Positions 49,584 to 54,537 of a stretch of 64,000 nucleotides of DNA are shown here, piece by piece (positions within the stretch are counted from its first letter, which is position 1; each line of letters opens with the position of its first letter). The notes beneath the pieces were generated by a model that saw only the letters and a program-made list of their open reading frames with translations, did no database searches and had not been told where the DNA came from. The translations under genes were made by a program, and so were the position numbers. Source of the DNA: Flavobacterium defluvii (GTDB taxonomy: Bacteria; Bacteroidota; Bacteroidia; Flavobacteriales; Flavobacteriaceae); NCBI RefSeq assembly GCF_900129555.1, contig NZ_FQWC01000009.1, positions 62,001 through 126,000 of the forward strand. Direction: 5' to 3'.

Positions 49584-51347
49584 TTAAAATTTTTGTTGTC
49601 TAATTCTTGTTACTATTGTTTTATAATTATCGTCATTTTCAGGATGAGCCTCTAACCATTTTTCAACTAATTTTGGATCATCACTGGTTGGTCTAGGTAT
49701 ATTAAGATTTAACCTTACTCTAGATGGTATTTTAATAGCTTCTCCAACTATTATAGCTTCTCCAGTTCTTAAAGATGGCAACAGGTCAATTAAACTATTT
49801 AAATTGTCGGGAGCTGAATTTTTTACAATTGATTGATCGCCAGAATTTGTTAATCTTAAAGCAATAAATGTCCCAACTTGTGCTAGTATTGTTTCTGAAA
49901 TTTCTGATGGTCTTTGGGAAATAACTAATGCTCCTAAACCAAACTTTCGACCTTCTTTGAAAACTTTTTCAACTGCTTCTTTAGAATAACTATTATTATC
50001 ACTTTTACTTAAATAATTATGTGCTTCTTCATACGCAAGTAATAAGGGTCTATTTTTCCCTGTATATGTTTCATGTCTACCCCAAAACATACTATCGTAA
50101 ACAAAGCGAGTTATAAGTCCAACTGTAATATCTAGTACTTCAAAAGGAACACCGCTTAAATCAAGAATGGCTAATTTTTTATTACTACCTATCCAATCAT
50201 TTAAAAGATTATGTAAATCTTTTGTCGAATTAGCATCTTTATAATCTCCAGGATTAAAAAGAAAGTCAAATCTAGAGTCTCTTAATCTTGACAATATTTT
50301 TTTTTCATAGGAATAAAATTCTTGATGTTTAGATTTAAACGGAGCAGTATTATTAGGTGGATATGGTATGAATTGAGCAGGTTGTAAATTTTCGGCATTA
50401 CCAATATTTATAATAGATGCCGTTGCTTTAGTTTGATCATCTTTATTGCTAGTACTAAAAGTTGCATTTAGCCAGTAATTCATTTCATGCCATAATTGTC
50501 GTGCACTAAATGGAATGGGAGAATCCGCTGTAACAAAATCCGGATTAACAACACCTGACTTTAAAGTACAATTTGATTTTTTAAGATTTGTTACTAACTC
50601 TCTAAATAATCTATAATCGGGTTTTTGATCATCTGTCGGTTTTGCGCCTATTAGAAAATAAGATAGTTCATCAAAGCTCATTAGCCAAAATGGAATAAAT
50701 AAGGGGTTAGCTGGTTCATTTATTTTGAGGACTTTTGCATCAGGAAATGCACTTGCATATTCACCATGTGGATCAACTAAAATAATTCTAGAACCACGAT
50801 AATCGTTTAAAATTGCTTTTAAAATACTCACCGTTGTGTTAGATTTCCCACTTCCAGTAGAGCCTAATATTGCGCAATGTCTTAAGATAAGTTTATGTAA
50901 GTCAGTATAAACACTTAGATTTTCGGACGATGAATGTTTTCCAATTTCAATTGATCCGTTATCTTTTTTGCCATAAATATCCAATAAATCTTTCTCTATT
51001 ACTATATGAACTTCGTCATTAATCGTTGGATAAGTTCCTACACCTTTTTCAAAATCATCATCACCGATTTTCTCTCCAACAAGTTGAATAGTTAAAAATC
51101 GAGATCCAAAAGAATATTTTAAATTATATTCGTCTGATTTACTAGGTGTATTACTGACAGATGAAACTATACCATAAATTGTAATATTACCAATTGGAAT
51201 TTTTATAAATGTTCCAATTTGACCAATTTTATATAACCTCCCATTTATTATTGGTGCAGCTGATGGAATTTCATTTGAAACTTCAACCTCTACTGTGCCT
51301 GAATCTACACGAATTATGTTTCCTAGGTATGTTATTTCACTTTTCAT
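49584..51347 (-). CDS. HerA-like (DUF87) hexameric ATPase of SIR2-HerA system
   Basis: 587 residues from ATG 51347 (a TTG two codons upstream is also possible). An N-terminal HAS-barrel-like domain (1-130) precedes Walker A 'GSTGSGKSN' (162-170), 'ILVDPHGEYASAFPD' (189-203), Walker B 'LLLAYEEAHNYL' (435-446) and 'LGALVISQRPSEI' with an arginine finger. It is an AAA-type translocase/helicase forming hexamers, and in SIR2-HerA anti-phage systems it works with the SIR2 NADase. The start nearly overlaps the preceding SIR2 stop, strong evidence of one operon. Confidence 0.92.
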   Translation of the reverse strand: MKSEITYLGNIIRVDSGTVEVEVSNEIPSAAPIINGRLYKIGQIGTFIKIPIGNITIYGIVSSVSNTPSKSDEYNLKYSFGSRFLTIQLVGEKIGDDDFEKGVGTYPTINDEVHIVIEKDLLDIYGKKDNGSIEIGKHSSSENLSVYTDLHKLILRHCAILGSTGSGKSNTTVSILKAILNDYRGSRIILVDPHGEYASAFPDAKVLKINEPANPLFIPFWLMSFDELSYFLIGAKPTDDQKPDYRLFRELVTNLKKSNCTLKSGVVNPDFVTADSPIPFSARQLWHEMNYWLNATFSTSNKDDQTKATASIINIGNAENLQPAQFIPYPPNNTAPFKSKHQEFYSYEKKILSRLRDSRFDFLFNPGDYKDANSTKDLHNLLNDWIGSNKKLAILDLSGVPFEVLDITVGLITRFVYDSMFWGRHETYTGKNRPLLLAYEEAHNYLSKSDNNSYSKEAVEKVFKEGRKFGLGALVISQRPSEISETILAQVGTFIALRLTNSGDQSIVKNSAPDNLNSLIDLLPSLRTGEAIIVGEAIKIPSRVRLNLNIPRPTSDDPKLVEKWLEAHPENDDNYKTIVTRIRQQKF

Positions 51348-51349
51348 TT

Positions 51350-52540
51350 TCAAACTGATTCTAGTATATCTTTTTTTCCTGAATTCGTAATGAAAAAGTT
51401 AACGAGTTGATTAAAATCACCAAGGGTAAATTTATTATCCGTCACATTCCAGTACGAATCAGTATTCTCATTAGGTTTTAAATAAGTTGGAATGTATTCC
51501 CATTCGCCAAGATTTCCGTTAATTATTGCTTTTGTTGGACCAAAAACATTAAGATTCAAATATGATGAAGTTTGTTTGTATAGATTTTCAACTTCTGCAT
51601 CTTGAAAGAAAAAGACTAAGGCGGTAAGTCTATTATTTTGCCTTAAACAATTAAAAATTATTTCATTAATATGTTGATCTGAAAATGAATATCCTGTAAA
51701 AACAAATAATAATTCACCACTTAATAAATAATTTTTAAGTCTATCAAAATAAGCAATAAATGGTTGTTTTTTTGATGAATCATATTTTTCTTTTGAAGGA
51801 TATATTACTAATTCATTATCTTCATCTTTTATGTTATCAATTTTCCCTATTCTAATAATTTTTTGAGATTTTGTCTTTGGGTCTTCTTTCCAGAACCAAC
51901 TTAGTGACCCATGTATTTTCCATAACCTGATCCAATTCTGAGTTAGATCATTTTTTGAAACAAATTTATCAATACTTTCCTGCCAAAAGAAGGGTTCATA
52001 GGAACCTACAAATCCATCAAAATAAGGAATCTGACTAGCTTCTAATGATTTTTCAATAATTAAATCATAATTTGTTGTAAAAACTTCCTTAGAATAATCT
52101 CTATTTAATAAGCTCAACCAGGCAAAGAATTTTTTTGAATTATCAATGTTAGCAACACTTTCTTTTTCAGCAATTATATCATAGATAACAGTGCAAATTT
52201 CTTGATCCAAAAGTTTTGCATCTTCCCCGCTAACTCCTTCATAAACTTTCTTAGTTTCTCCGGTTAGCTCTCTAATCCTACGAATTTGATTTAGGATATC
52301 TTCAATATTAACTTTTCTTGTTGTTATATTTGTTTCTAAATCTGCCTTAATGAGTTTAAAATTAGCTAAGTGACTTCCGTTTAGTTTTGATTCAATACCC
52401 TTTGTTAATATTTCAACATTTGGAACTCCTAATGCACAAGATGTACCGGCTCCAAAAAAGAATCCAATATTCTTCGAATATGACAAATGTGTTTTTAATT
52501 CTCTAATTTCTCTAATTAAGTTTATCTTATCCATTGCCAT
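51350..52540 (-). CDS. SIR2-family NADase effector of SIR2-HerA system
   Basis: 396 residues. SIR2 NAD-binding elements: G30-A-G-T-S34 in 'FFFGAGTSCALGVPN', 'FTTNYDLIIEKS' (N157, D159), catalytic H210 in 'LWKIHGSLSWFW', and 'VFTGYSFSDQHINEI' (280-294). This agrees with the Nezha-type SIR2 protein that depletes NAD(+) on phage infection. Directly followed by HerA with a 4-bp-type junction (TGA overlapping the TTG/ATG region). It is the first intact gene of the island; its promoter is presumably upstream of the small broken gene. Confidence 0.92.
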   Translation of the reverse strand: MAMDKINLIREIRELKTHLSYSKNIGFFFGAGTSCALGVPNVEILTKGIESKLNGSHLANFKLIKADLETNITTRKVNIEDILNQIRRIRELTGETKKVYEGVSGEDAKLLDQEICTVIYDIIAEKESVANIDNSKKFFAWLSLLNRDYSKEVFTTNYDLIIEKSLEASQIPYFDGFVGSYEPFFWQESIDKFVSKNDLTQNWIRLWKIHGSLSWFWKEDPKTKSQKIIRIGKIDNIKDEDNELVIYPSKEKYDSSKKQPFIAYFDRLKNYLLSGELLFVFTGYSFSDQHINEIIFNCLRQNNRLTALVFFFQDAEVENLYKQTSSYLNLNVFGPTKAIINGNLGEWEYIPTYLKPNENTDSYWNVTDNKFTLGDFNQLVNFFITNSGKKDILESV

Positions 52541-52896: not shown

Positions 52897-53167
52897 AAGT
52901 TTTATTTTTTAATGATATAATATTAATTTTGAGAATTATTACTATTTCAAAGTGATTGTATTTTTAATAAGATCAAAGATTACTCTTTAATTATTCACAA
53001 CTTTACGGTAAACCGTAACTAACTAAAAAATATACTTAACAAGTATATCAATAATCCAAATCCAAAACAACGCGTACTTATACGGTATTTTATACCCAAT
53101 AAAAAAACAAAACCCTCAATCATAAAAAATGATCAAGGGTTTATAAAACTTTAAAAACAAAATAATT
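52897..53167. promoter_or_regulatory. upstream region of the defence operon with two inverted repeats
   Basis: Contains TTACGGT-aa-ACCGTAA (53003-53018) and ATATACTT-aac-AAGTATAT (53030-53048), two perfect palindromes 12 bp apart, about 110 and 135 bp upstream of the broken gene start. They are candidate operator sites for the island. The gene to the right (53168-53401) ends with the terminator at 53100-53143. Confidence 0.4.
53100..53143 (-). terminator. terminator of the 77-residue gene
   Basis: On the minus strand AAACCCTtgATCAT-ttttt-ATGATtgAGGGTTT followed by TGTTTTTTTATT. Symmetric tg/tg internal loop. Placed between the defence operon and this gene. Confidence 0.75.
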
Positions 53168-53401
53168 TTACTCCAAATCCAAATAAGGATTCAAAATCTC
53201 AGCAAGTTCATTCAACCAATAAAAACTATTTTCAAGTTTATCGATTTCTTGTTGGATGGTTTCGTTCTCTCTTATTAAGCTTAGCGAAAGAACAAAATTT
53301 ACCTGCCTTAAGGCTTTTGCCATTTGTTCTGGCGCTACGGTTTGATTGAAGAAATTGGTAAGCCTGATTTCGGTTTCTTTAGAAAGGGTTTTGGTACTCA
53401 T
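53168..53401 (-). CDS. small conserved-looking hypothetical protein with structured leader
   Basis: 77 residues, helical, no signal peptide: 'MSTKTLSKETEIRLTNFFNQ', 'QMAKALRQVNFVLSLSLIRE' and a final helix 'WLNELAEILNPYLDLE'. Not recognised. It has its own terminator and starts 22 nt after a 74-bp palindromic, GC-richer element with a U-run (see 53423-53496). The leader-and-gene arrangement suggests regulated expression or a mobile/dispersed unit. Upstream frame on the plus strand is a shadow and is not called. Confidence 0.55.
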   Translation of the reverse strand: MSTKTLSKETEIRLTNFFNQTVAPEQMAKALRQVNFVLSLSLIRENETIQQEIDKLENSFYWLNELAEILNPYLDLE

Positions 53402-53422
53402 AATCTGTGTATTAGGAAAAAA

Positions 53423-53496
53423 CCCGTATGGCTAAGGTGTCCTACGCCACAGAGTGCGTTACGGTTGTTTCCAATACCGTCACCATACCATACGGG
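53423..53496 (-). ncRNA. candidate structured leader RNA (three-way junction) upstream of the 77-residue gene
   Basis: Read on the minus strand: P1 CCCGTATGG / CCATACGGG (9 bp), inner helix GGTG / CACC, then two hairpins: ACGG-ta-TTG-GAAA-CAA-CCGT with a GNRA-type GAAA loop, and ACG-CAC-TCT-GTG-g-CGT. A run of six U follows P1 immediately and the gene ATG is 16 nt later. About 50 per cent GC against roughly a third around it. Fits a riboswitch/attenuator or autonomous RNA; I do not recognise a known Rfam family. A T-rich run on the plus side means the opposite orientation cannot be excluded. Confidence 0.45.
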
Positions 53497-53793
53497 CAAA
53501 AGTTTTTTTTTGATATCATTTTTCTCTGAATTTAGGACAGTAAAGATATCAAAAATGTTTTAATTGTAAGAAAAATATTTCTTTTTAGATTTTGTTTCTA
53601 AATCAAATTTCCACAAAATATTCTTATGAAAAGAAGGTATTATCTCCTAAAAAATCAAATACGAATATATGAAATGGAAGTTTAAGCTTCAAGACTATTT
53701 AATTTTTTTAAAAAGGTATACTTAATGATACCATCAAAAAACCAACCCCATTTCCAATCTAACTTTGTCCCATTAATTTAAAAACATAAAATA
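53497..53793. other. spacer between structured element and SDR gene
   Basis: A second hairpin TTTTTGATATC / GATATCAAAAA (53507-53517 / 53545-53555) could hold the promoter of the leader RNA (a TTTTTG then TAAATTCAG pattern on the minus strand). The rest is AT-rich leader of the SDR gene, with TAACTTTG at 53760. No gene. Confidence 0.4.
53760..53767 (+). promoter_or_regulatory. candidate -7 element for the SDR gene
   Basis: TAACTTTG fits TAnnTTTG and ends 26 nt before the ATG at 53794. The following 'TCCCATTAATTT' resembles the start region of the cupin and hydrolase leaders. Confidence 0.4.
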
Positions 53794-54537
53794 ATGGACA
53801 ATTTAAAAGATAAAGTAGCCGTAATCACAGGCGGAAACAGCGGTATAGGTTACGCAACAGCAAAACAATTAAAAGAGCAAGGCGCTCAGGTTATTATTAC
53901 CGGAAGACGAAAAGAAGCAATTGAAAAAGCAGCACAAGAATTAGGCGTAACAGCCGTTACGGCAGATCAAGCGAGTGTGTCGGATATTGAGAATCTGGTT
54001 GCTAAAGTAAAAGAAGATTTCGGTGCGGTTGATATTCTTTTTATCAATGCCGGAATCGCGGGTTTGGGAACAATTGAACAAACTTCGGAGGAATTGTACG
54101 ACAGCATTATGAATGTCAATTTGAAAGGCGCTTATTTTACGCTGAGCAAATTTATCCCAATTTTAAAAGATGGTGCTTCAGTAGTATTTCTTTCTTCGAA
54201 TACTGCGAGTATGCCCGGGCCGGGATCTTCGGTTTATTCGGCGAGCAAAACGGCTTTGAATTCGGTTATGAAATCGGCGGCGTTGGAATTAGCGCCACGA
54301 AAAATCAGAGTGAATTCTGTTAGTCCGGGACCAACAGAAACTGAGGTTATGAAAAAAGTTGGTTTAGACGAAGCAACCGTAAATGGTATTATGGATGTTG
54401 TTGTCGAAAAAGTACCGTTAAAACAAATGGGAAAATCTGAAGACGTTGCCAAAATGGTTGCCTATGTAAGCAGCGAAGCAGCAAAATTTATCACCGGATC
54501 TGATTTTATTATGGATGGTGGAATGGTGCTTGCTTAA
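53794..54537 (+). CDS. SDR family oxidoreductase (FabG-like)
   Basis: 247 residues, classical SDR: TGGNSGIG nucleotide loop (residues 13-20), 'INAGIAG', S in 'FLSSNTAS' and Y-S-A-S-K, then 'SPGPTET' and 'ITGSDFIMDGGMVLA' at the C-terminus. Cytosolic NAD(P)H-dependent reductase; substrate unknown. First of a series of stress-type genes on this strand and probably monocistronic. It resembles glucose/3-oxoacyl dehydrogenase-like SDRs often induced by HxlR-type regulators, which is inference. Confidence 0.9.
   Translation: MDNLKDKVAVITGGNSGIGYATAKQLKEQGAQVIITGRRKEAIEKAAQELGVTAVTADQASVSDIENLVAKVKEDFGAVDILFINAGIAGLGTIEQTSEELYDSIMNVNLKGAYFTLSKFIPILKDGASVVFLSSNTASMPGPGSSVYSASKTALNSVMKSAALELAPRKIRVNSVSPGPTETEVMKKVGLDEATVNGIMDVVVEKVPLKQMGKSEDVAKMVAYVSSEAAKFITGSDFIMDGGMVLA

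Follow-up and report, generated by a model that had tools for sequence, protein, structure and literature searches.

The window analysed here is a stretch of 64,000 nucleotides of Flavobacterium defluvii, in which a structured leader on the minus strand precedes the gene of a 77-residue orphan protein (Table 1). Read along this strand, the module consists of a promoter-like box, the segments a1b1, a c4-2 RNA, the segments a2b2, and the start codon of the 77-residue gene, whose ATG (53399-53401) lies 15 nt past the run of six T. A terminator-like hairpin past the small gene, the sole terminator-like site within 53100-53800 (0.4 expected in shuffles), suggests that a one-gene transcript would be made. 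Downstream on the same strand, positions 49584-52540 hold a SIR2-like gene (Pfam SIR2_2) and then a HerA-type helicase gene (Pfam DUF87/HerA), a pair that resembles a SIR2-HerA defence pair.

Table 1. Features of the leader and small gene, in order along the minus strand.
Feature	Position in window	Strand	Basis or remark
Promoter-like box TATCTTTA	53541..53548	-	7/8 letters of the Bacteroidota TAnnTTTG consensus
a1, upstream copy of a target, TCCTAAA	53531..53537	-	Sequence comparison
b1, upstream copy of b target, TTCAGAG	53524..53530	-	Only CAGAG (5 nt) fits the guide in the window
c4-2 RNA, three-way junction P1/P2/P3	53420..53497	-	Rfam match and covariation
P2 hairpin, GAAA tetraloop (TTG-GAAA-CAA)	53461..53480	-	Rfam model, fold
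P3 hairpin bearing the b' guide loop	53445..53458	-	Rfam model, fold
b' guide TCTGTG, P3 loop	53448..53453	-	Complementary to b2
a' guide TAGGA, P3/P1 junction	53440..53444	-	Complementary to a2 TCCTA
Six T directly after P1	53417..53422	-	Sequence; the largest group of copies has three
a2 target TCCTA	53413..53417	-	Sequence comparison
b2 target CACAGA, ending 2 nt before ATG	53404..53409	-	Complementary to b'
77-residue orphan protein gene, presumed regulated gene	53168..53401	-	Reading frame, family comparison
Terminator-like hairpin after the small gene	53110..53142	-	Consensus match only

The element had initially been annotated as a possible new structured RNA fitting no known riboswitch consensus. 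The Rfam scan instead matched it to c4-2 (RF02944) with 74.5 bits against a gathering threshold of 41, and it thus belongs to an established Rfam family and is no new RNA class. RF02944 is united with C4 (RF01695) and c4-a1b1 (RF03163) in clan CL00128; as to membership of RF01695, RF02944 alone was listed at the element in a scan that displays just the best overlapping match per clan. The c4-2 RNA was reportedly first described by Weinberg et al. in 2017. Within the parts of the open-access literature covered by our search, whose scope did not extend to that original description, RF02944 was named only in the structure-update table of the Rfam 15 paper. The RF02944 model is typed as sRNA and ends at P1, and a1b1, a2b2, and the families of small genes lie outside it.

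The structural part of the initial annotation held up well: the three-way junction, the GAAA tetraloop in P2, and the six T after P1 are all present on the minus strand, where the P1 helix is formed by GCCCGTATGG pairing with CCATACGGG. Folding of the minus strand was better than that of 200 out of 200 dinucleotide shuffles (z -2.77). The plus strand folded equally well (z -3.40, with 1 of 200 shuffles matching it), and the fold by itself therefore cannot pick the strand; the minus strand was chosen because both the Rfam c4-2 model and the covariation favour it. After merging of identical copies, which reduced 105 rows to 96, two-sided changes were observed at 24 of 26 pairs across P1, P2, and P3, and 95.6% of the pairing cells were compatible with the structure (shuffled mean 77.9%). 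For these 96 rows, the covariation score was 0.550, compared to 0.223 for shuffled alignments (none of the 500 reaching the observed value) and no more than 0.136 for slid ones; their alignment (A2) had been made with our own model R1, which biases it towards the R1 structure. The covariation is strong, and a conserved structured RNA leader is confirmed.

The assignment of the leader to the 77-residue gene was likewise borne out, as small reading frames of 48-109 residues follow the element in 88 of the 96 distinct rows (three truncated frames counted). With a single exception, the distance between the P1 end and the start of the frame is 20-30 nt; the truncated frame of L073 was located only at an inner start. 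Among the remaining rows, six have no frame and two (L021 and L094) carry only an unrelated one. The family of the window gene shows 21 invariant columns in 20 sequences. Its members occur in 27 of the 150 Flavobacterium genomes, some of them at places without an RF02944 hit. The 77-residue protein had no match in Pfam or NCBIfam and no significant match among PHROGs, and no relative was retrieved at E 0.01 from the phage and plasmid collections. AlphaFold predicted its structure with modest confidence (mean pLDDT 73.1), and no fold match to this model was obtained at E <=0.001.

We then compared the parts of the element with its flanks in a set of 129 distinct elements; 33 R1 matches, several of which are the same loci from named genomes, entered neither these counts nor those on the 96 rows. 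The figures given are those for all rows, given that the division into classes used a rough pattern that placed eight class-1 rows in 'class 3' and the class-3-like L094 in 'class 1'. The longest match between the P3 loop and the downstream tail averaged 5.58 nt, against 3.77 nt for swapped partners and a maximum of 4.09 nt in 2000 permutations, and was at least 6 nt long in 66% of elements compared to 5.6% of swaps. With P3 and the junction taken together, the mean rose to 6.95 nt for the tail before the start codon (swapped 4.72, permutation maximum 5.05), where 114 of the 129 elements had a match of at least 6 nt, and to 7.49 nt for the upstream flank (swapped 5.33, permutation maximum 5.61). 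The junction (a') alone reached 4.40 nt against the tail, above the permutation maximum of 3.83, and all 2000 permutations were exceeded, both downstream and upstream, by the P3 loop, the junction, and their combination. No such signal was obtained for P2 (tail 4.60 vs 4.55, upstream flank 5.02 vs 5.00) or for the 5' strand of P1 (3.94 vs 3.93 and 4.27 vs 4.34).

Variants of the junction covary with a2. The junction variant UAAGA is accompanied by an a2 segment UCUUA in 9 out of 9 rows, and UAGAG by CUCUA in its single row; of the 86 rows with the common junction UAGGA, only 45 have the full 5-nt partner UCCUA downstream. Ten different guides occur among the 24 elements located at the hpf-like site; a match of at least 6 nt is present for b2 in 23 of these elements and for b1 in all 24. 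At the site of the window, three genomes carry three different guides, each matched by b2, and the b1 match of the window copy extends over just 5 nt. Of 127 genome-labelled copies, 31 show no b match that reaches 6 nt, some of these copies being degenerate. Within genomes, guides cross-matched at 6 nt in 7.8% of 218 ordered pairs; separate specificities (92% of pairs) are thus the rule, but to no greater extent than random draws give. The frequency of cross-matches is not significantly below the 9.8% seen between genomes (permutation P 0.24), and this comparison lends no significant support to selection for separate guide specificities within genomes.

These patterns bear directly on the function proposed in the initial annotation, namely a ligand-binding riboswitch or a transcription attenuator. 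Such a function would be in line with the three-way junction and with the six U that follow P1 in the window copy, but the run of T after the last P1 pair measures three in 64 of 129 copies and at least five in only 16, and an attenuator ending in a U run is unlikely because in most copies this run is short. As for a riboswitch, nothing was found that points to one: outside the helices, the segments that covary with other portions of the leader are the loop of P3 and the junction between P3 and P1, with the translation start region and its upstream copy as partners, a pattern expected of an antisense guide and not of a ligand pocket. Moreover, the gene downstream is not a metabolic one and codes for a small protein without a family match. 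Taken together, we consider a riboswitch or attenuator extremely improbable.

In a second group of elements (class 3), the guide combines the junction with the 3' strand of P3, and its pairing partner is the start codon together with codons 2-3 of the small gene, as exemplified by AUGCAAAA, AUGACUAAA, AUGACAAAA, and AUGCUAAAA. Here, the guide covaries with codon 2. Matches of at least 6 nt between this guide and the start codon with codons 2-3 were present in 19 of the 20 rows caught by the pattern, the exception (5 nt) being L037 from the genome of the window; inclusion of the class-3-like L094, which the pattern missed and which has neither a small gene nor a start-region match, brings this to 19 of 21. 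Over 21 parsed rows, one of which belongs to class 1, the start-region match averaged 7.0 nt and was higher than in all 5000 permutations (maximum 6.10). The class-3-like protein of L030 is related to PHROG 33690 (E 7.7e-20), and a relative of this protein occurs in eight Flavobacterium phage records. In the four phage records examined, the gene lies upstream of a tape-measure or 'structural protein' gene, from which it is separated by one annotated gene in three phages and by two in L164. In each of the four, the match between leader and start region spans 8 nt. Only phage 1H (L164) among the phage records examined yielded an RF02944 match, with 49.4 bits. Of the c4-2 copies from other genera, three (L135, L136, and L140) adjoin a phage-integrase-family gene, as tested for L135, the others being of the same cluster. 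Two weak matches below the cut-off (L137 and L138) are found, as judged by eye, in prophage-like tail modules, and those of the neighbouring proteins that were tested had no Pfam match.

The genome of the window contains four c4-2 copies. Counting this genome in each case, whole-genome sampling gave a match at E 0.001 in 28 genomes out of a Flavobacterium sample of 150 (26 above the cut-off), 8 out of a family sample of 299, and 11 out of a phylum sample of 395; these larger scans used stricter filters, by which weak matches are lost. A search for the core with a strict DNA pattern recovered 21 stretches from genome_contigs and none from viral_contigs. Copies were found repeatedly at the same sites, beside an S30AE-family (hpf-like) gene (24 elements), an EamA-like gene (10), a methionyl-tRNA synthetase gene (9), a DJ-1/PfpI gene (8), and, as in the window, an SDR gene (3); the neighbours were each confirmed by Pfam in one example, except for the EamA-like gene, which was named by eye. 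Since these sites recur across genomes, many copies were probably inherited in place.

This distribution also has to be weighed against the notion of a DNA-level element, that is, a dispersed repeat or recombination site in which the repeated segments merely look like targets. One could cite for it that matching genomes of the Flavobacterium sample hold one to eight copies, at times two or three close together, that some members are linked to phages, and that an integrase-family gene stands beside the copies of three loci in other genera. Yet different species share recurrent sites, the pairing is of the RNA type with G-U changes, the guide tracks codons of the regulated gene, and, apart from that integrase, inspection of the recurrent neighbour clusters by eye revealed no recombinase or transposase. 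The copies are indeed dispersed, but a repeat unrelated to the gene, which would have contradicted the initial annotation, does not agree with a small frame in 88 of 96 rows. A DNA-level element thus appears very improbable, hardly less so than a riboswitch. A guide RNA of a mobile element was rejected as well, as no transposase was seen by eye in the recurrent neighbour clusters; a phage-integrase-family gene stands beside the three loci of other genera.

The closest known parallel is the C4 RNA of the phages P1 and P7 (RF01695, with c4-a1b1 RF03163). The P1 record shows the order a1, b1, C4, a2, b2, icd (73 aa), and ant, i.e., the same succession of a1b1, RNA, a2b2, and small gene as described here. 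On the one hand, the guides occupy the same places in both, with a' in the junction between P3 and P1 and b' in the loop of P3, and b2 likewise lies shortly before the start codon. On the other hand, c4-2 is another sequence family, its P2 has GAAA where C4 has UUCG, and it occurs in many chromosomal copies with different specificities. No antirepressor gene stands behind c4-2, the next genes on the same strand being the SIR2-like and HerA-like ones, and no alignment was obtained between the Icd protein of P1 and the 77-residue protein. According to the portions of the literature consulted, RNase P processes C4, whose b' loop occludes part of ribosome-binding sites (PMC5320573), and C4 is described as a block to translation around the ribosome-binding site (PMC12197685). 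The first of these sources, as far as consulted, describes a many-copy C4-like group in Acinetobacter baumannii, the Group 1 sRNAs, which comprise many chromosomal C4-type RNAs with variable guides that are apparently processed from larger transcripts (PMC5320573). In contrast to the Flavobacterium copies, where the matching target and the gene follow directly, the consulted part of that source names no target gene beside the RNA (PMC5320573).

Considering its Rfam family and clan, its layout, and its complementarity, it is likely that the leader represents a C4-type antisense module guarding the small gene. A transcript would begin just upstream of a1b1, carry these segments, fold into c4-2, and run through a2b2 into the start of the 77-residue gene. 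The b' loop of P3 would then pair with b2, whose end lies 2 nt short of the start codon, and a' with a2. By analogy with C4 of P1 and P7, this observed complementarity would bar the entry of ribosomes and keep the protein off, with a1b1 as a putative second, competing partner of the same guide. The leader thus probably holds the translation of the small gene off. As the sets of guides and targets mostly differ between the copies of one genome, each copy would mostly regulate only itself. A start of transcription near the promoter-like box is assumed in this scheme. In Bacteroidota, the promoter consensus is TAnnTTTG. Of the 129 copies, 94 contain the pattern TAnnTT[TC]G in their upstream stretch, compared to a mean of 10.8 and a maximum of 18 in shuffles, and in 66 copies it sits 3-4 nt before a1; the window copy is among the 35 without a match to this pattern.

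A purely cis-acting leader has to be considered alongside this module. Guide and target would then pair within one molecule as a pseudoknot and gate translation with no free antisense RNA, perhaps in response to a ligand or to the small protein itself. Guide and target do lie in the same leader and change together in evolution, and the collapsed copies described below pair their 5' end with the start region within one leader that has no intact C4 core. However, C4 of P1 has the same layout and is, according to the part of the source consulted, processed from a larger transcript to act on target mRNAs (PMC5320573), and the duplicate target a1b1 would be hard to fit into one static fold. We regard the cis-acting leader as a possibility of some substance, and the C4-type antisense module as the better description of the locus. 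The latter would provide a concrete mechanism, with the target located beside the guide, for an Rfam family typed only as 'sRNA', and it extends the C4-type layout to Flavobacteriaceae and their phages. In addition, matched pairs of guides and targets at one shared genomic site constitute a natural series for the evolution of antisense specificity.

The protein family does not depend on c4-2, as 45 of its members come from places without an RF02944 hit; cmscan detected RF02944 at none of these 45 loci, and our own model R1 picked up c4-2 remnants at several of them. L172 is a fragment that contains a stop and was omitted, which left 44 of the loci for examination. In 16 of the 44 (L171, L182-L185, L187, L189, L196, L197, L199, L201, L202, L204, L205, L207, and L213), a divergent Cro/C1-type HTH gene lies upstream (Pfam HTH_3, E 4.7e-14 in the one example tested), and at several of these a palindrome was noticed by eye between the small gene and the HTH gene. 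Another 13 loci, picked by eye, have retained the 5' a1b1 while their c4-2 core has decayed (L170, L173-L178, L180, L188, L190, L193, L194, and L198). For these decayed copies, the mean duplex energy between the 5' segment and the sequence before the ATG was -7.87 kcal/mol, against a permuted mean of -5.23 and minimum of -7.4 (0 of 5000 permutations reaching the observed value), in a small, post hoc set that keeps L188 and L193, anchored at the wrong motif, and L190, with a doubtful start codon. This result offers a lead that pairing at the start site is the feature under selection.

On these grounds, we tentatively propose, as a scenario that may well need revision, a Flavobacterium family of stand-alone, phage-related, antisense-guarded genes. 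Each would have its own C4-type guide and two targets, the guides would drift to separate specificities, and the module might collapse to a pairing between the 5' target and the start or be swapped for a divergent repressor of the Cro/C1 type. The small proteins would act as phage-type effectors that the cell has to keep off, and their antirepressor- or toxin-like role is a guess from context.

Two minor observations concern the leaders themselves. In the window, a short frame runs from an ATG just after b1 through c4-2 (53517-53440, minus strand), ending, as seen by eye in this copy, at the TAG of a'; other copies vary. Finally, matches to the Flavo-1 RNA (RF01705) were found near L173, L175, L177, L179, and L188, four of them above the cut-off and that of L173 just below.
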